A stretch of DNA of 49,891 bases from an uncultured Rubritalea sp. Lineage in GTDB: Bacteria > Verrucomicrobiota > Verrucomicrobiia > Verrucomicrobiales > Akkermansiaceae. The notes beneath the pieces were generated by a model. That model worked only from the letters and a program-made list of their open reading frames with translations. It did not search any database and was not told where the DNA came from. The position numbers and the translations under genes were made by a program. The DNA is taken from NCBI GenBank assembly GCA_937132085.1, contig CAKZNV010000203.1:1-49891 (forward strand), written 5' to 3'. Positions 43,545 through 49,891 of the stretch are shown piece by piece (the stretch's first letter is position 1; every line of letters begins with the position of its first letter).

Positions 43545-43871
43545 TTATATAACGGATCGATAATAGAGAAGCACTGATAATATCCAGATTAGAACTCCTA
43601 GAATAATGATGAATTCAATGAGTGTGATAATACAGATTTTAGGATCATTAAACTGATTCCCGCATTCATTGCATTTACGGGGATATTTGTTCCTGAGGGT
43701 ATCAAAAAATTTCATGATGCTAAAGTGCTGGAGGAACGCAATGAGCTTATTTTTAAAGCCCATATTCTGAAGTGATTCAGTATTACATGATCCACATTTT
43801 GGGCAAACATCTGTTGATCTAGTGATCTCATGATTTGCTTCTGAGCGGGGTGGCTGATAAGGATTTTTCAT
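43545..43871 (-). CDS. Small zinc-ribbon membrane protein
   Basis: This 108-residue protein begins MKNPYQPPRSEA, a start common to small membrane proteins of Verrucomicrobiota and Planctomycetota. Two CxxC pairs, CPKCGSC near residue 23 and KCNECGN near 67, suggest a zinc ribbon, and the last 30 residues form a hydrophobic helix. Function unknown. It is the last chromosomal-looking gene before the tRNA fragment that marks the accessory element. Confidence 0.65.
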   Translation of the reverse strand: MKNPYQPPRSEANHEITRSTDVCPKCGSCNTESLQNMGFKNKLIAFLQHFSIMKFFDTLRNKYPRKCNECGNQFNDPKICIITLIEFIIILGVLIWILSVLLYYRSVI

Positions 43872-43880
43872 AAAGATAAA

Positions 43881-44102
43881 TTGGTCGGAACGACAGGATT
43901 CGAACCTGAAGGAGAAACCCAGTTAAATAACTCACTACTAGATAGTTACGTTTTAGAAAAGTGCCTATGGACACAAGGAGGGACACAAAGAATAGGCTCA
44001 GATTGTCCTAAATTGGCAGAGATTTCAGAGTCTTGGCATAGTCTTCCTGACAGCCTCAAAGAGGCTATTTTACTGATTTCTCGCTCAGCAACAGATAGAT
44101 AA
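43881..44102 (+). CDS. Short ORF crossing the att site; possible tail of a recombinase
   Basis: A 73-codon frame begins within the tRNA fragment (giving VGTTGFEP, the usual false translation of such tRNA ends) and continues as CPKLAEISESWHSLPDSLKE to a TAA. The second half resembles tails that follow tyrosine recombinase genes in Planctomycetota and Verrucomicrobiota, as far as I remember. No catalytic recombinase domain is in the window. The call is weak and the frame may not be translated from TTG 43881. Confidence 0.3.
   Translation: MVGTTGFEPEGETQLNNSLLDSYVLEKCLWTQGGTQRIGSDCPKLAEISESWHSLPDSLKEAILLISRSATDR
43882..43908 (-). other. tRNA 3'-end fragment, probable attachment site of an integrated element
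   Basis: Read on the minus strand, these 27 bases form the T arm and acceptor end of a tRNA: CAGG-TTCGAAT-CCTG, seven acceptor bases CGTTCCG, a discriminator A and CCA. The adjoining bases to the right do not continue into anticodon or D arms, so no complete tRNA is present. An acceptor start of CGGAACG would fit tRNA-Pro among others. This is the pattern left at the distal att site when an element integrates into a tRNA 3' end; the intact tRNA would lie to the right, outside the window. Confidence 0.7.
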
Positions 44103-44205: not shown

Positions 44206-44730
44206 ATGCAGTCCGACAATCCAGATTTCAACCGCAAGTATGAGGAGCTAAGTGCTCCTGTATTGCACTACGCCTACACACTATGCCGTGACTGGGCATG
44301 GGCGGAAGATGTCTCTCAGCAACTCTGGATTCGCATGTATCGCTACCACAAGAAGCACAGCTCTTTTCCTGAAATCGGAAACGTCTACAACATGACAAAG
44401 CAAGCGTTCATCGATGACTATAGAAAACATAAACGCCGTGACCATGTCTGCACGATGGAAGATCCTCCTGAAATTCCCATGATGCCAGTTCGACAAGATT
44501 CTCTCTTCTCAGAAGACGAAAGTGGTCTCTTCAGCCAATTCTGGGAGCAATTCACCCCTCTCGAATTACCACTCATCGACCGACAAGTCTTTTGGCTTCA
44601 TGAACGCTATGGCTACACAATGGTAGAAATCGCTGAAAAAACGCAGCTTGCGAAATCCACAGCTCACGATAAATTAAAGAAGGTGAAGGCTGCATGCCTC
44701 GACTTTCTTAACCTAGAGAAGTCACAATGA
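44206..44730 (+). CDS. ECF-type RNA polymerase sigma factor
   Basis: This 174-residue protein has a region 2-like segment with WAEDVSQQLWIRMYRY near residue 31-46 and a region 4 helix-turn-helix with QVFWLHERYGYTMVEIAEKT and AKSTAHDKLKK near 125-160. It probably directs transcription of a small gene set, possibly the element's own. Its TGA stop overlaps the next ATG, so TGA clearly acts as a stop here. No recognisable anti-sigma membrane protein follows. Confidence 0.8.
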   Translation: MQSDNPDFNRKYEELSAPVLHYAYTLCRDWAWAEDVSQQLWIRMYRYHKKHSSFPEIGNVYNMTKQAFIDDYRKHKRRDHVCTMEDPPEIPMMPVRQDSLFSEDESGLFSQFWEQFTPLELPLIDRQVFWLHERYGYTMVEIAEKTQLAKSTAHDKLKKVKAACLDFLNLEKSQ

Positions 44731-44945
44731 ACGAAGATAACGACAAGCCTAAGATTACGGAAAAAGATCTCACAAATCTAGTGAGAGGTTTTGGTATGCC
44801 TTCTGGTAAAGAACTTGAAAAGAAAGTTGAACAGTCCATTGAGAACGAAAAAGATCAGTCCCAAGAAATGGAGAATGATCCTACAGGATTAAAACAACTA
44901 TATAGAGAACAGGAACAAAATAGAAATCAGGACAGAAAGCGGTAA
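44727..44945 (+). CDS. Small charged protein coupled to the sigma factor
   Basis: The 72-residue protein is very rich in acidic, basic and polar residues, with no hydrophobic helix. It starts at ATG overlapping the sigma-factor stop (ATGA), so the two are coupled in translation. It could be a soluble regulator of the sigma factor, but I recognise no family. It ends in TAA. Confidence 0.55.
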   Translation: MNEDNDKPKITEKDLTNLVRGFGMPSGKELEKKVEQSIENEKDQSQEMENDPTGLKQLYREQEQNRNQDRKR

Positions 44946-45014: not shown

Positions 45015-45281
45015 ATGACCTATTCGATAGCACAGCTTGGAAAGCTCTCTGAAGAAATCATCCTTGAAGCTCAAAAGAAGCCAGTTCGCATCGCCAAGAA
45101 CGGTAAAGATTGTGCAGCTATCATCTCTATTCCTGACCTTGATTTACTAGAGGAAACTAAGAAATCATACAAACTTCGATCTGCCGTGCAAGCTGGGTTT
45201 TCTCAGATTGCAGAAGGAAATTATAGCACTAAATCAATGGATGAAATTTTTGAGGAAGCAAAAAGAAAGATAAAAGAGTAG
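45015..45281 (+). CDS. Phd/YefM-like antitoxin
   Basis: This 88-residue protein has the Phd/YefM N-terminal pattern: MTYSIAQLGKLSEEIILEAQ followed by KPVRIAKNGKDCAAIISIPD, the DNA-binding part, and a flexible charged C-terminus that would wrap a toxin. No toxin gene follows; the next 400 bases hold iterons. It may help plasmid maintenance as an orphan or act with a distant toxin. The stop is TAG, compatible with either genetic code. Confidence 0.7.
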   Translation: MTYSIAQLGKLSEEIILEAQKKPVRIAKNGKDCAAIISIPDLDLLEETKKSYKLRSAVQAGFSQIAEGNYSTKSMDEIFEEAKRKIKE

Positions 45282-45664
45282 CTTTCCCTAAATACCTGAA
45301 CAGGCATGATTACCTTTGTGCCCCTCTCTTTCCCCCTTTCGACATCTATAAGAATAACTATAACCATTATAGCTTTCCAACTTCCGCAGCTACATGCTGA
45401 AATCTCACGCCTATGGTGACCTTTTACAGTAGCAAAAGTGACCTTCTACAGTTTCTATAAGTGACCCTTTACAGTAACTCCTACCTGAAAAGTGACCCTT
45501 TGCAGTATGAAACCCAACTTTCAATTTTCGAACCCCTGAGGCTGTTGCAATTCACCTATCGATTCTGAACTCCACCTTACTGTAAAAGGTCACCTTTAGC
45601 CCCACCTCCATAAGTGACAAGTGACCTCAACGAAATTTGACACCGTCACCGTTTTGCATACCAT
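45282..45664. other. Non-coding origin region of the replicon
   Basis: No open frame of useful length is present. The stretch holds the iteron array (45416-45507) and one inverted copy (45578-45593), and ends with the palindrome over the rep start. I see no perfect DnaA box. A TAACCATTAT motif at 45361 resembles a motif upstream of two later genes. Confidence 0.7.
45416..45593 (+). repeat. Iteron array of a Rep_3-type plasmid origin
   Basis: Four direct copies of GTGACCYTTTACAGTA occur at 45416-45431, 45438-45453 (GTGACCTTCTACAGTT), 45461-45476 and 45492-45507 (GTGACCCTTTGCAGTA). Start-to-start spacing is 22, 23 and 31 bases, about two, two and three helical turns. One inverted copy lies at 45578-45593, and a partial GTGAC pair at 45612-45625. 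This is the classic architecture of an initiator-bound origin just ahead of its rep gene. The inverted copy may serve in autoregulation. Confidence 0.9.
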
Positions 45665-45689
45665 GTTCCATATTCAAAGAATATGGAAC
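45665..45689. promoter_or_regulatory. Perfect inverted repeat spanning the rep start codon
   Basis: Two perfect 11-base arms, GTTCCATATTC (45665-45675) and GAATATGGAAC (45679-45689), flank AAA. The ATG of rep (45683-45685) is inside the right arm. It could be an operator for Rep autoregulation or a hairpin that hides the start codon. Confidence 0.7.
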
Positions 45690-46993
45690 TAACAAACACC
45701 ACATTACCCACTGACGAAAGGTTCCTCAAAAAGCATATTGAGGTCGTTCACACGCATTGAACTCTTTGACTTTTAGACAAAAGAATTTGGAATGAGTTAC
45801 TCCTTCATGCTTATCCCAGCCTTCTCACTCATTCTCGATTTGACATCAAATATTCCGTGCTTTTGGAACGTCTTCGCTACGACTCATGAGACAGGCAACT
45901 GATCAAAGACTCGCTAAAAAAACTCGCACGCACGCAAATTGAATTCATCGATAGTGACGCTGACGGGAAGGAGCTTTCTTGGCAAGTGATGAACCATATA
46001 TCTGCCCCTAAAATCCGCTGGGGTGCCGACTCCTTCTCATATGGCTATGACCACGGACTCCCAGAGTTACTCTACGACCCTAAGACCTATGCACTCATCA
46101 ACCAAGCTAGTGAAGAACGCTTCAATAGCAAATACACCCTAAACCTCTACGAAAACGCCGTGCGGTATAAGGCTCGCCCTGGTTATCCATGACTCACACC
46201 TCAGTGGTCTCTTGAAATATTTCATAAATTTATGGGAACGGAAAGTGTTGAACTGTATGAACGTTACGCCGAACTTAATCGTCGAGTCATTAAGCCGTCC
46301 GTTAAAGAAATCAATGATAAATCAGATATCCACCTTACTTTTCTCCCTATCAAAATGGGAAGAAAGATAGTCGGTGTGCAATTCAAAGTCGTAGAAAACC
46401 CCAAGAACGATCAACTCAAGATTCCTTGAACTGAGGAAAAGAAAACCACTGCTGAAATCCTCAAAAAATCCATCGTTCAAAAATGTATCAAGCTTGGTGC
46501 AGGTGAAGGACTGGCTTGCCTCTGGTATAAGCAATACGGAGAAGCCTACCTCACTGAAAAAATCATTTTCACAGAAAAAACAATCAAATCCTGATCTATT
46601 AAAAAGACTCCCTGAGCGTGTCTCACGTGGGCGGTGGAAAAAGACATCAAAGACAAAAACCCCGTCTTGGAAGCATGAAAAAAACGACGGGAAATTCAGG
46701 CCGAAAAACAGAAGGTCGAAAAGCTAGAGCACGAACAAAGCCGTCTAAAGTCGGAGAAGGATCGAAATGCTCGCCTCAAATCCAAGGAACTCGTGAATCA
46801 ATACCTTATTGAACGCACAGAAGCTAAACAGCAAGAGCTTCGAGCTGAATTTCAGGAACTCTACCAAGACTTCATTGAGCAATCCATTTTCAAACCAGAA
46901 GAAGTATTTCATTGCTGGGTTGCAGAGTCAGCACAACTTGGAAATCCCTATCCTATGATCAGAGGAGCCCGTATTAAGCATATAGCTGCGTAG
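45683..46993 (+). CDS. rep: Rep_3-family plasmid replication initiator, with eight in-frame TGA codons
   Basis: In one continuous frame of 437 codons from ATG to TAG there are eight TGA codons (residues 26, 29, 69, 170, 249, 304, 311, 332) and no TAA or TAG. The protein is otherwise a complete initiator: LLDKRIWNELLLHAYPSL near 30-47, ELLYDPKTYALINQ, SKYTLNLYENAVRY at 149-162, RVIKPSVKEINDKSDI, and a charged coiled-coil tail from about 335. Remembered Rep_3 proteins have glycine or small polar residues at several TGA positions (SG-T-x-S-LL at 26/29, the G before TP at 170, the G of P-G-A/Y-L at 311), favouring TGA as glycine. It follows an iteron array and should bind it. A standard-code host would read only 25 residues. 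Confidence 0.85.
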
Positions 46994-47048
46994 TTCAGAC
47001 GGAAAAGCCTCACTTCTCCAATGCTTTTTGATAGTCAAATGAGGACAC

Positions 47049-47123
47049 TTGATCAATAGAAAGTATTGCTATCGATCAAAAAACCATTAAATTGTGATCA
47101 ATAGAAATCACACCTATTGATCA
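47049..47123. promoter_or_regulatory. Two inverted-repeat pairs upstream of the Fic gene
   Basis: The motif TGATCAATAG occurs as two inverted pairs: TTGATCAATAG (47049-47059) with CTATCGATCAA (47069-47079), and TGATCAATAG (47095-47104) with CTATTGATCA (47114-47123). Centres are 45 bases apart. The last arm touches the ATG. The downstream Fic protein has a C-terminal winged-helix region, so autorepression through these sites is plausible. Confidence 0.75.
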
Positions 47124-48208
47124 TGATATGGAACTGGCAAAAATCTGACTGGAGAAAATTCTCCTATGAATCCTCGAAACTTCAACACTTTGAGGATGAT
47201 TTCCTTCGCTATTGCGGGGAGGTAGTCGGAGCACTCAAGCACCTCAATACCGATGAGAAAAACGAGCTACGTGTTACCTTGCTCAGGGACGAAGCCATAC
47301 AAACCTCCAAGATCGAAGGTGAATACCTCGATCGTGATAGCATCCAGTCGTCTATCCGACGTCATTTTGGACTTCAAGTAACCAATGAGAACAAAGCTCT
47401 CAAAGAACAAGGTATCAGTGATCTACTTGTCGATGTTTATCAGAATTTTGAAAAACCACTTTCACATGATCTTCTTCGCCAGTGGCAACGCAAACTCTTT
47501 AGCTCAGCACCTGGATCAGGGGAGTATCGCACGCACGAAGAGCCTATGCAGGTTGTTTCAGGTGCCATCTACGCCCCAACTGTTCACTTTGAGGCTCCAC
47601 CATCGGCTCAAGTTCACGACGAACTCGAAGCGTTCATCCTGTGGTATAACACCGCACATGAAGAAAAATCTATCAGCCCTCTTATTTTAGCTGGAATCTC
47701 TCATCTTTGGTTCGAGTGCATCCATCCTTTTGAGGACGGGAATGGACGTGTAGGCCGTGCTTTAGCTGAGAAGTCCCTCTCCCAATCTCTCGGTCAGCCA
47801 TCGCTTATTTCTCTTTCCTCCGTGATTGAGAAAAAGAAAAGTGCCTACTACGAAGCACTAGAGAAAGCCAACAAAGGCAATGAAATCACTAAATGGCTGG
47901 AGTATTTCCTCCCCACCATGATCGAAGCTCAACAATACAGCCTCAAGAAAATCGACTTCATTATCCAGAAAGGAAAACTTCTCAACCAGCATCAGAAGCA
48001 GCTCAACGAACGTCAGCTCAAAGTTGTGCTCCGTATGTTTAGGGAAGGCGTTGAAGGATTTAAAGGTGGACTCAGTGCAAAAAACTATATGAGTATTACC
48101 CAGATATCCCAGCCTACTGCTACCCGTGATCTTCGTGACCTTGTAGAAAAAGGCGTTTTCAAAAAGACGGGAGAACTCCGCCACACCCGATACTGGTTGA
48201 ATATCTGA
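47123..48208 (+). CDS. Fic family protein (AMPylase-type) with N-terminal DUF4172-like and C-terminal winged-helix regions
   Basis: The protein of about 361 residues starts MIWNWQKSDW, typical of the DUF4172-type N-terminus, and includes the regulatory TSKIEGEYLDRDSI segment with the (S/T)xxxE inhibitory glutamate, the catalytic HPFEDGNGRVGRAL loop (HxFx(D/E)GNGRxxR), and a C-terminal helix-turn-helix (ITQISQPTATRDLRDLVEKG). Fic proteins attach AMP to target hydroxyls. All of its about 20 glycines use GGN and none uses TGA. It ends at TGA 48206; if TGA were read as an amino acid it would end three codons later at TAG 48220. I start it at ATG 47123. Confidence 0.9.
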   Translation: MIWNWQKSDWRKFSYESSKLQHFEDDFLRYCGEVVGALKHLNTDEKNELRVTLLRDEAIQTSKIEGEYLDRDSIQSSIRRHFGLQVTNENKALKEQGISDLLVDVYQNFEKPLSHDLLRQWQRKLFSSAPGSGEYRTHEEPMQVVSGAIYAPTVHFEAPPSAQVHDELEAFILWYNTAHEEKSISPLILAGISHLWFECIHPFEDGNGRVGRALAEKSLSQSLGQPSLISLSSVIEKKKSAYYEALEKANKGNEITKWLEYFLPTMIEAQQYSLKKIDFIIQKGKLLNQHQKQLNERQLKVVLRMFREGVEGFKGGLSAKNYMSITQISQPTATRDLRDLVEKGVFKKTGELRHTRYWLNI

Positions 48209-48220
48209 TCTATCCTCTAG

Positions 48221-48394
48221 GAACCCTCTGTAATGACTGGACAAGGAGGGAGTGCATACTCATTCCACATTATACTGACTCCATCTCAGGGGCAGTTTTT
48301 TAATGCTGAATTTTAGCAACCTAGAACCTCCTTTCAGTCGGTCTCCAAGTTGCCCCTTCGCTTCTCGTCAGTCCATGCTTCATTGAGCATACGC
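48221..48394. other. Gap between Fic and the next small gene
   Basis: No supported gene or clear signal was found. Short frames exist but none has recognisable content. The end of the gap joins the conserved leader motif described separately. Confidence 0.5.
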
Positions 48395-48419
48395 TCTCTT
48401 ATATTCTAACCATTTCATT
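48395..48419 (+). promoter_or_regulatory. Shared leader motif, first copy
   Basis: CTTATATTCTAACCATT lies 6-8 bases ahead of the start at 48420. A near-identical motif, CTTATTCTAACCATT, lies at the same distance before the gene at 48849, and TAACCATTAT occurs at 45361 in the origin region. The function is unknown; a translation or transcription start signal special to this replicon is likely. Confidence 0.5.
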
Positions 48420-48779
48420 ATGGTAAAATCTGTGAGTCGACACCACCTCGACTATGTATCTCGGCACATCAACCAAACCCGACTGGTTTTGGAATGATTG
48501 CAAGTCAACCTCCTCAGCTACGATGATATCATCGGCTGGGATGAAGACACCGAAGTCTTTCAATGGCTCGCCTTCAATCACTTTTACGAGACTGATTATG
48601 AACGTCTCAAAAAAGCTGGAATCCCTTTCCTCGATAGCGAGTTTTGAACATGGGTTGGTATTACCAGCTACGGATCTCACTACGACCTCTACGTCTATCC
48701 TGAGTTGCTAAAAGCACTCTTCGATGTCGATTGTGATCATTACGATCTCGATTCTTTGCGACAAAAAACCTCCGCATAA
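48420..48779 (+). CDS. Small protein of unknown function with two in-frame TGA codons
   Basis: A 120-codon frame from ATG to TAA contains TGA at residues 26 and 76 and no other stop. The continuous protein has coherent segments on both sides: SYDDIIGWDEDTEVFQWLAF, YERLKKAGIPFLDSEF, then after the TGA TWVGITSYGSHYDLYVYPEL. The reading FLDSEF-Gly-TWVG looks natural to me, but I cannot name the family. Read in the standard code it is 25 residues. It shares the leader motif with the next gene and has a hairpin over its stop codon. Confidence 0.72.
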
Positions 48780-48800
48780 TGCAGAGGCTCTCTTATTTTC
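48766..48800 (+). terminator. Possible terminator at the end of the small recoded gene
   Basis: Arms CCTCCGCA and TGCAGAGG (48769-48776 and 48780-48787, one mispair) around TAA are followed by a pyrimidine-rich CTCTTATTTTC run. The stop codon lies in the loop. Confidence 0.45.
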
Positions 48801-48826
48801 AAGCGTCTGAATTCTCAGGTGCTCTT

Positions 48827-48848
48827 TTCTTATTCTAACCATTATTCT
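48827..48848 (+). promoter_or_regulatory. Shared leader motif, second copy
   Basis: TCTTATTCTAACCATT precedes the start at 48849 by about six bases, matching the copy before 48420. Both belong to genes with in-frame TGA codons. Confidence 0.5.
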
Positions 48849-49232
48849 ATGAAATCAACTATTCACACATCACCCGACGGAAACTTCCCTTACGGAGACC
48901 AATCTAACTACCGAAACTTCCTGCTCTGAGAAGAGGTTCTAAAGGGCTTCGCAGAACACGAGGAGGCGAACATGACAGCTTCAAACCCTATGGTGATTGC
49001 TCGCTACTTCCACCCATCCAGTTCTATGACCTGGTATGCAACTGAATACAACGTCGACGAAGAAGTCTTCTACGGCTACGTCACAGGCTTTCACTATCCA
49101 GAGTGGGGTTCATTCTCTCTACGAGAGTTCATTGAGCTTCAGCTCCCATACGGGCTCAAAATAGAGCGTGACCTATGGTTCATGCCTAAGCCGATCAAAC
49201 AGGCTCTCAAAGACGACGGTCAAGAGCTTTAA
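48849..49232 (+). CDS. DUF2958-like protein with one in-frame TGA codon
   Basis: A 128-codon frame from ATG to TAA has a single TGA at residue 27 (between NFLL and EEVLKGF). The C-terminal part matches the DUF2958 pattern found in plasmid and conjugative-element proteins: PMVIARYFHPSSSMTWYATE, VFYGYVTGFHYPEWGSFSL and IERDLWFMPKPI. An ATG at 48972 could give a shorter 86-residue protein without the TGA, but the N-terminal segment reads like genuine coding sequence and the leader motif sits before 48849. Function of the family is not established. Confidence 0.75.
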
Positions 49233-49353
49233 GGCCTACACTTTTGAAGGCATCGTCTCTGGTGCCTTCTCCTGAAGGCAATCTAAGTTTGATTTGATCA
49301 TTGATTCAAGTATCATGCACTCCAATCATAATGTATGATTGAAAAGTAATGGA
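49233..49353. other. Gap with a small hairpin
   Basis: A hairpin GAAGGCA / TGCCTTC (49246-49252 and 49263-49269) follows the DUF2958-like gene, with a third GAAGGCA at 49274. There is no T run, so it is not a standard terminator. No gene is seen. Confidence 0.4.
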
Positions 49354-49405: not shown

Positions 49406-49888
49406 TTACTTCTCAATCTCCGACACATCCCTCTGAATCGTCCTCAGCGACACCGATGGTATAGCCTCCGCTATTTCATGAGCATTCAACCCATTTCCTA
49501 ACATCTCAGAAACGAGCTTCACTCGCTGATCCTTCGATAGGGAAGTAGCGCTTCCTATCTCAGGATTCCAGCTTCGCTTCATCTCGTTTTTCACAGAGTG
49601 CATCAACGCCTCGAAGCTCAAGAAAAGTAAAACTGGTGGTGAGGCTGCTAGAAGCATCGCCAGCCACCTTCCTTCCACATGGCAGATATTGAATAACACG
49701 CTTCCACTAGAGACGAACACCACCAGACCTCGCAACCACAGTGTCGGCTCTTCTCGTAACGATGCTCGCAAGGCTGACATCGAGAACACCACGATCGCAC
49801 CGTCGATCACCAGAGGGAACACCCAGCTCAGTCCAGGTGTCACCACCGCTTGCTCGACGGCTAGCTGTCTCAACGCCTCGAAGGACAA
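49406..49888 (-). CDS. DUF2637-like membrane protein with C-terminal helix-turn-helix (partial)
   Basis: The visible 160 residues run off the right edge, so the true start is missing. Three or four hydrophobic helices include LSWVFPLVIDGAIVVFSMSA and FVSSGSVLFNICHVEG, resembling DUF2637 (SpdD/TraK-like plasmid-transfer membrane proteins of actinobacteria and others). The C-terminus has a helix-turn-helix, LNAHEIAEAIPSVSLRTIQRD. It ends in TAA and contains no in-frame TGA. It appears richer in G+C than the recoded genes beside it. Confidence 0.65.
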   Translation of the reverse strand: MSFEALRQLAVEQAVVTPGLSWVFPLVIDGAIVVFSMSALRASLREEPTLWLRGLVVFVSSGSVLFNICHVEGRWLAMLLAASPPVLLFLSFEALMHSVKNEMKRSWNPEIGSATSLSKDQRVKLVSEMLGNGLNAHEIAEAIPSVSLRTIQRDVSEIEK

Positions 49889-49891
49889 GCT

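Follow-up and report, generated by a model that had tools for sequence, protein, structure and literature searches.

An integrative plasmid at tRNA genes of marine Verrucomicrobia, with plasmid genes that need TGA read as glycine beside standard-code genes

The window analysed here, a whole stretch of 49,891 nucleotides from a Rubritalea contig, ends in an integrated element that begins at ~43.9 kb, at a tRNA-Pro(GGG) 3' fragment. At the left junction (43832..43908, minus strand), 77 bp are exactly common to the end of the host contig C27, and through this overlap the assembly contains both the occupied and the empty version of the site. The attachment fragment itself, the 3' end of tRNA-Pro(GGG), lies at 43882-43908 on the minus strand and is followed by a host gene on the same strand (43871-43545). 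The element reaches the contig end at 49891 and its right part is absent from the assembled contig, whose final 77 bp recur identically at the end of contig C246. The extent of 45683-49232 given in the preliminary description was therefore too short.

The plus strand of the element carries an ECF-type sigma factor gene (44206..44730, standard code, TGA stop) with orthologues in the related elements described below, a conserved small ORF of 72 aa (44727..44945, standard code), which follows the sigma gene in every element with this region assembled, and an accessory Phd/YefM-like antitoxin gene (45015..45281, standard code) that remained below the Pfam cut-off. Next come the iterons TGACCTTTTACAG of a putative origin (45417..45592), with four direct copies (45417, 45439, 45462 and 45493) and an inverted one at ~45580, and a sigma-70-like promoter match upstream of rep (TTGACA-16-TACCAT, 45637..45664), proposed from the consensus match only. 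The rep gene (45683..46993, plus strand) encodes a Rep_3 initiator of 436 aa if TGA is glycine, with in-frame TGA at 45758, 45767, 45887, 46190, 46427, 46592, 46613 and 46676. Further along the plus strand lie an accessory Fic/DUF4172 gene (47123..48208, standard code, no internal TGA, TGA stop), a structured noncoding element (48251..48423) upstream of the gene for an unknown 119-aa protein (48420..48779, TGA as glycine at 48495 and 48645), and a DUF2958 gene of 127 aa (48849..49232, TGA as glycine at 48927). A standard-code DUF2637 gene on the minus strand (49406..49891) is truncated by the contig end.

Translated with TGA as glycine, Rep matches two Pfam domains above cut-off, Rep3_N (E 9e-7) and Rep3_C (E 3e-18), and the best fold matches of its predicted structure, a model of moderate confidence, are RepE structures. 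Iterons TGACCTTTTACAG precede rep in five elements, mostly in ~22-bp steps, with arrays similar to that of the window in C246, G003, G011 and L035. On this sequence evidence Rep is a Rep_3 iteron plasmid initiator; autonomous replication is inferred only. The noncoding element shows covariation across five elements, and the model built on it found an independent sixth copy. We obtained no match for the unknown 119-aa protein in Pfam, NCBIfam, PHROGs or plasmids, and its predicted fold was too poor for use. Phage structural genes were absent among the element genes scanned, and the function-bearing PHROGs matches of the elements were restricted to replication, sigma and integrase.

We could confirm that rep, the 48420 gene and the DUF2958 gene are intact only when TGA is read through, as initially proposed: they contain 8, 2 and 1 in-frame TGA, respectively, no TAA or TAG, and no frameshift. 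Between 45600 and 49240 the coding density rises from 30% in code 11, due to Fic alone, to 94% in code 25; for the host part (1-43500) the corresponding values are 95% and 93%. From base composition, ~18 TAA/TAG would be expected in 437 random codons, and the probability of a frame without either is ~1e-8. Across nine elements, the 61 TGA sites of rep align with glycine (mean BLOSUM score +1.8). Tryptophan, the table 4 reading, scores -2.5 at these sites and was rejected. The two element copies in the window's genome have four TGA in common, and another eight interchange with GGN. Read through TGA, rep has dN/dS values of 0.11 and 0.14, indicating purifying selection, and DUF2958 values of 0.07-0.16; these values and the lack of TAA/TAG in nine copies led us to reject a pseudogene reading of rep. 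The recoded genes themselves stop at TAA or TAG. At the 64 CGA/CGG sites of rep, arginine scores +1.7 and tryptophan -2.6. The Absconditabacteria code, in which CGA/CGG is tryptophan, is thus not met, and the arginine reading fits Gracilibacteria instead (PMC8629427). Altogether, a standard-code chromosome is indeed joined to a Rep_3 plasmid-type replicon whose genes require an amino acid at TGA.

Besides the window's element, seven copies were identified in its own genome and in five related bins; an eighth lies on a contig that is probably mis-binned. The second copy in the window's genome carries 10 TGA. The homologues in the related bins and on the mis-binned contig all have in-frame TGA and none has TAA or TAG; the observation that would have refuted the recoding, homologues stopping at the first TGA, was thus not made. 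Gene order is equal in elements whose Reps are only ~41% identical, and the standard-code genes are orthologous among all elements. In independent bins the elements adjoin intact tRNA-Asn, -Lys, -Val and -Tyr genes on standard-code contigs of 72, 86, 17 and 63 kb. A tyrosine integrase is present in C246, G034, G269, G270 and L035; the window's copy, as far as it is visible, lacks one. In three elements a conserved stretch bearing a palindrome follows DUF2637, and we saw no relaxase or transfer genes. The elements form a family of integrative plasmids that target tRNA genes in marine Verrucomicrobia (Rubritalea and its relatives). They resemble integrative mobilizable elements and integrative plasmids at tRNA sites in their tyrosine integrase, tRNA 3' target and cargo, and differ from them in their mixed code, in the lack of visible transfer genes and, for the window's copy, in the absence of an integrase from what is visible of it. 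The closest Rep (~31% identity) and the closest ParA to that of the relative G011 (31-34%) are found together on the same Rhodobacteraceae Rep_3 plasmids with ParA nearby (Sulfitobacter S223, Rhodobacteraceae SC52, Octadecabacter pOA238_118), which use the standard code, whereas the window's replicon is recoded and tRNA-integrated. We did not find a description of such an element in a literature search.

Every carrier host is a metagenome bin and the element stands at a contig end; moreover, contamination by recoded contigs can imitate code changes in bins (PMC8629427). A Gracilibacterial plasmid contig might thus have been fused to a Verrucomicrobial one during assembly or binning. We regard such an artefact as scarcely credible, since the join coincides precisely with the 3' end of a tRNA and overlaps the empty site by 77 bp, independent bins hold the element beside four other intact tRNA genes in standard-code contigs, and its standard-code genes are orthologous across all copies. 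Of the two alternatives originally offered, a recoded element in a standard-code genome is therefore supported by the further copies at tRNA genes and by the empty site, and a chimera of two organisms is very unlikely.

The element is not recoded throughout. In the rep, DUF2958 and unknown genes, 77 of 293 glycine codons are TGA (216 GGN; parA excluded), whereas the integrase, sigma, small ORF, DUF2637 and Fic genes of the same elements have none among 246 (all GGN), a difference with p=2e-23. The genes read with UGA as glycine are the plasmid genes proper, namely rep, DUF2958 and the unknown gene with its structured leader, together with parA and its partner gene in one relative (G011). The standard-code genes comprise those of integration and regulation (tyrosine integrase, ECF sigma, small ORF, DUF2637) and cargo such as Fic. 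The view of a recoded replicon thus holds for rep, the 48420 gene and DUF2958, but not for the sigma, small ORF, Fic and DUF2637 genes on the same element; likewise, the sigma gene at 44206 is standard-code with a TGA stop, as described, but belongs to the element and not to the host flank.

This division bears on the idea that code-25 plasmids were captured by integration into Verrucomicrobia and are now inert. The rep, parA and DUF2958 genes do resemble ordinary code-25 plasmid genes and should be untranslated in the present host. However, in a purely code-25 plasmid TGA would also occur in the integrase, sigma and DUF2637 genes, which together with Fic and the small ORF have none. Moreover, the gene order recurs despite the divergence of the Reps, and Rep is conserved, with TAA/TAG in 0/9 copies. 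Recoded and standard parts have coexisted through deep divergence, and we consider such a dead end improbable.

Code-25 organisms possess tRNA-Gly(UCA) and lack RF2. RF2 is present in our host, and the UCA tRNA was not found among the inspected host tRNAs nor, by pattern, in eight genomes; this rules out code 25 for the resident host, and the replicon is expected to lie dormant in the Verrucomicrobium. Searches of element and host for a suppressor tRNA (ARAGORN, Rfam, a relaxed scan of our own and two genome patterns) returned chance matches only. No UCA suppressor tRNA was seen in the window, whose copy is incomplete on the right, or in what is visible of the other elements, and the anticodon is absent from the tRNA array of a tRNA-rich, prophage-like region on contig C36 of the same genome.

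These absences weigh against the main rival to a two-host reading, in which a phage, a conjugative element or an unrecognised tRNA would supply the UGA glycine suppressor within Verrucomicrobia, so that a single host would suffice. Recoding would then serve as a replication lock, such as has been proposed for the late genes of recoded phages. We also found no relatives in IMG/VR, scanned with Rep, sigma, DUF2958, ParA and the unknown protein. In favour of a helper, the contig does not include the right part of the element, and recoded and standard genes have similar GC3 and C3 composition, so that a second host leaves no trace there. The function-split mixed code, moreover, resembles that of recoded phages and prophages that bring suppressor tRNAs into standard-code hosts (crAss-like, Lak and others), discussed by Liu et al. 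2023 (PMC10746230). Like these, the element is mobile, resides in a standard-code host and has in-frame reassigned stops in some genes only, and its functional division suggests regulation or a second state of decoding. In contrast to them, it is not a phage, it reads UGA as glycine and not UGA as tryptophan or UAG as glutamine, its recoded genes are those of replication and partition, and no suppressor tRNA was found. We hold a helper to be possible, if on balance unlikely.

The reading we prefer, at a little below an even chance, is that of an integrative plasmid written in two codes, silent in Verrucomicrobia, replicating in a Gracilibacteria-type code-25 cell and selected in both. We propose more tentatively that the element alternates between the two cell types, with the difference in code acting by itself as the switch from integration to replication and back. 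Sitting at the 3' ends of various tRNA genes in standard-code chromosomes, where full-length Rep and ParA presumably cannot be made, the element would ride passively; by inference, its chromosomal iteron origin would thereby be kept quiet. Upon reaching a cytoplasm with tRNA-Gly(UCA), the DNA may give rise to full-length Rep and ParA. The likeliest working place of the replicon is a UGA-glycine cell of the Gracilibacteria type, most likely an epibiont or predator taking up DNA from Verrucomicrobia; this second cytoplasm is inferred, not seen. Epibionts with code 25 are equipped with ComEC and type IV pili, and they probably take in DNA of their hosts (PMC8080830; PMC11393006). There the element could replicate as a plasmid, its standard-code integrase would allow a return to Verrucomicrobia, and selection in both cytoplasms would maintain the two codes side by side. 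Similarly, some phages are proposed to have hosts among code-25 Gracilibacteria as well as among standard-code bacteria (PMC10746230). Like these phages, our case suggests that the two codes are encountered by a single element within one community. Most dual-code phages, however, shun in-frame TGA and are readable in both codes, whereas here TGA-rich genes readable only in code 25 stand beside TGA-free ones.

Several observations count against a shuttle between two cell types. No copy was seen in a Gracilibacterium: a GTDB contig scan gave matches only on Verrucomicrobial contigs and one odd bin, with Gracilibacteria genomes outside the direct search. The recoded genes do not differ in GC3/C3 from the standard ones, a route back to the Verrucomicrobium was not identified, and all hosts are metagenome bins. 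Furthermore, some standard-code genes (Fic, the window's sigma and DUF2637 in three elements) end in TGA, and their proteins would be extended if read in code 25.

Stop-codon reassignment is thought to isolate an organism from gene exchange with its neighbours. The recurrent element described here combines the two codes in a single molecule, keeps each of them under selection, and integrates into chromosomes that use the standard code. Since code-11 gene finders fragment such replicons, they have probably been overlooked. If a helper supplies the suppressor, the element would represent a stop-codon replication lock outside viruses. If the two-host reading is true, it would reveal that genes pass between Gracilibacteria-type cells and the organisms around them, and may provide a marker for finding the partners of such cells.

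The three genes that the preliminary description had read through TGA lie where it placed them, and none contains an in-frame TAA or TAG: rep (45683-46993; 436 residues, 8 in-frame TGA), an unknown gene (48420-48779; 119 residues, 2 in-frame TGA) and a third gene matching DUF2958 (48849-49232; 127 residues, 1 in-frame TGA). With TGA translated as Gly, Rep matched both Rep_3 initiator domains above the Pfam cut-offs; the similarity of its predicted model (mean pLDDT 66) to RepE supports only this domain assignment. Coding density at 45600-49240 is 94% with code 25 and 30% with code 11, and in the left 43.5 kb of the window 95% with code 11 and 93% with code 25. In that left part TGA does act as an ordinary stop, as had been claimed, with 5 of 40 genes ending so. 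We also observed a leader motif, TTCTAACCATT, at 48400-48420 and 48825-48848, a short distance 5' of the start codon (ATG) in the unknown gene and in the DUF2958 gene; it likewise occurs in the other elements, often preceded by a hairpin with a T-rich tail.

The window makes up the entire contig C203 of a 4.46-Mb bin, 98.7% complete, in which a further contig, C246, carries a second copy (69% identical, 10 TGA). Searching 260 genomes of the family, we found Rep in 6 genomes as 8 copies, containing 7, 9, 10, 8, 4, 7, 7 and 5 TGA and no other stops, while a phylum-wide draw of 388 genomes gave, outside the window's own genome, only remote Rep matches, all without stops. The named Rep records come from Rubritalea and Verrucomicrobiales bins, plus a single contig in an 'Alteromonadaceae' bin; the latter is probably mis-binned, since its tRNA-Pro fragment (L035 1-60) is 92% identical to tRNA-Pro(TGG) of the window's genome. 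Every host is a metagenome bin.

We scored 61 TGA sites in nine Reps against the corresponding residues in the other elements and in five plasmid Reps of standard code. The aligned residues are mostly Gly, with a mean BLOSUM of +1.83 for Gly and +0.20 for the runner-up; Trp, at -2.45, was rejected. Judged from these alignments, TGA is glycine in the recoded genes. Between the Reps of the window and C246, 4 TGA are in common, 8 are exchanged with GGN, and one each with Ser and with Ala. Since CGA and CGG align with Arg, the Absconditabacteria code, in which both are predicted to mean Trp (PMC8629427), is ruled out.

Nei-Gojobori estimates (own script), reading through TGA, gave a dN/dS for rep of 0.107 between the window and C246 and 0.142 between relatives G003 and G011, and for DUF2958 of 0.072 between the window and C246. 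The unknown gene gave 0.29 and 0.22, neither of them firm given its small number of changes, and a divergent, partial Rep pair in G269 gave 0.45 on an incomplete alignment. By this measure, the recoded genes are under selection when read through TGA.

Orthologous genes among the elements divide into two sets by TGA use, and the split is seen in every element. The first (rep, the unknown genes and DUF2958) contains 216 GGN and 77 TGA, the second (integrase, sigma factor, small ORF, DUF2637 and Fic) 246 GGN and 0 TGA (Fisher p = 2e-23, overstated because related elements do not supply independent codons). A ParA gene (2 TGA) and its ribbon-helix-helix-like partner (1 TGA) in G011, left out of this count, fall in the recoded set, and the plasmids with the nearest Reps also bear the closest plasmid relatives of this ParA. 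The recoded set is therefore the plasmid core, and the standard-code set comprises integration, regulation and cargo. Both sets have the same base composition and so have a single mutational history in common. That the element is a dead capture of a code-25 plasmid is disfavoured, as its integration genes lack TGA. Relatives of the sigma factor (L110 7400-8200; L111; L109) also have VirD4-like or ArdC-like genes nearby where no recoded rep is present, and in G267 one is accompanied by the small ORF; this pair seems to regulate other Verrucomicrobial mobile elements too.

The start of the element adjoins an intact tRNA gene in four relatives (Asn in G034, Lys in G269, Val in G270, Tyr in G011). 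C246 has a 3' fragment of tRNA-Tyr followed by the integrase, and the window a tRNA-Pro(GGG) fragment at 43882-43908. At the end of host contig C27 stand an intact tRNA-Pro(GGG) and, behind it, the beginning of the host gene that the window also has at this place; C27 and the window overlap by exactly 77 bp. An overlap of exactly 77 bp is also seen between the right ends of C246 and the window. Such a fixed length would, we infer, arise at a branch of a de Bruijn graph built with that word size. The overlap, with the tRNA intact in one contig and fragmentary in the other, indicates that the empty and the occupied site are both in the sample, and hence that the insertion is polymorphic there. 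This is expected from an integrating element and not from a chance chimera. Given this site and the further copies, an assembly chimera, the alternative first raised of a contig joining two organisms, is close to excluded; the other possibility raised, a recoded element inside a standard-code genome, is supported by recurring copies integrated at tRNA genes. In G011, contig C14 (26.3-58.8 kb; L020, L017, L021, L022) carries an element arm, groES/groEL and other host-like genes and, beyond these, a 57-bp tRNA-Tyr fragment with an integrase, a rearranged insertion whose arrangement is not resolved. A conserved palindrome-bearing stretch (GGGAAGGCTAGCCTTCCC and variants) follows DUF2637 (L035 10243-10312; L016 6566-6640; L017 13788-13858) and is a candidate transfer origin.

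Directly 5' of the unknown gene, the noncoding stretch 48251-48423 shows unusual conservation. In the structure predicted for it, 15 pairs have changed on both sides among five elements (shuffles 8.2, sd 1.7; slid controls 0-3). The five-element model retrieved a sixth copy, not in its training set, at the same position behind Fic in G269 (E about 1e-19), and the structure was kept on folding all six (window; L015 11482-11657; L016 2957-3131; L017 11252-11426; L035 7413-7588; L047 1-147, minus strand). Nothing in Rfam matched at this position, making it a candidate for a new RNA or for a single-stranded DNA promoter. Folded single-stranded DNA promoters are known from the leading regions of conjugative plasmids; by analogy, the stretch could act either as a promoter of this kind or as an RNA leader, and its position 5' of recoded genes would suit reading on arrival in a new cell.

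We did not find a decoder. The host genome encodes RF2, and among 52 tRNA matches in it no tRNA read by ARAGORN has a UCA anticodon (for a few fragments and degenerate copies the reading was done by eye). A search pattern for Gly-tRNA with UCA, its frame checked against the host's own Gly tRNAs, gave only chance matches in eight genomes, and the visible parts of the elements hold no tRNA besides the target genes. The absence of a decoder from host and elements is thus well supported for the assembled sequence, although the window's copy of the element is incomplete on its right side. In the window's genome, contig C36 carries a GOLLD RNA and closely packed tRNA genes (L085 8900-11770), probably a prophage.

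From our data it follows that rep, parA and DUF2958 must somewhere be translated with UGA as Gly, and the integrase, sigma factor and DUF2637 somewhere with UGA as stop, and that both decodings lasted long enough for the Reps to diverge to about 41% identity with the arrangement kept. Most simply, two cytoplasms would be involved, that of a standard-code Verrucomicrobium and that of a code-25 cell in which CGR means Arg (Gracilibacteria type), although a search for code-25 hosts that was limited in its reach did not show this second cell; the rival is a suppressor tRNA supplied by a helper. DNA uptake genes and a life on other bacteria are known from related code-25 bacteria (PMC8080830; PMC11393006), and phages linked to both Gracilibacteria-type and standard-code cells have been proposed (PMC10746230). 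Closest among known systems are the recoded phages and prophages of standard-code hosts; our element differs from them in that it is a plasmid, in what the codon means (UGA as Gly), in the genes recoded and in having no suppressor tRNA that we could find. If it were shown to be silent in a standard-code Verrucomicrobium and a working plasmid in a UGA-Gly cell, the element would be of a new kind.
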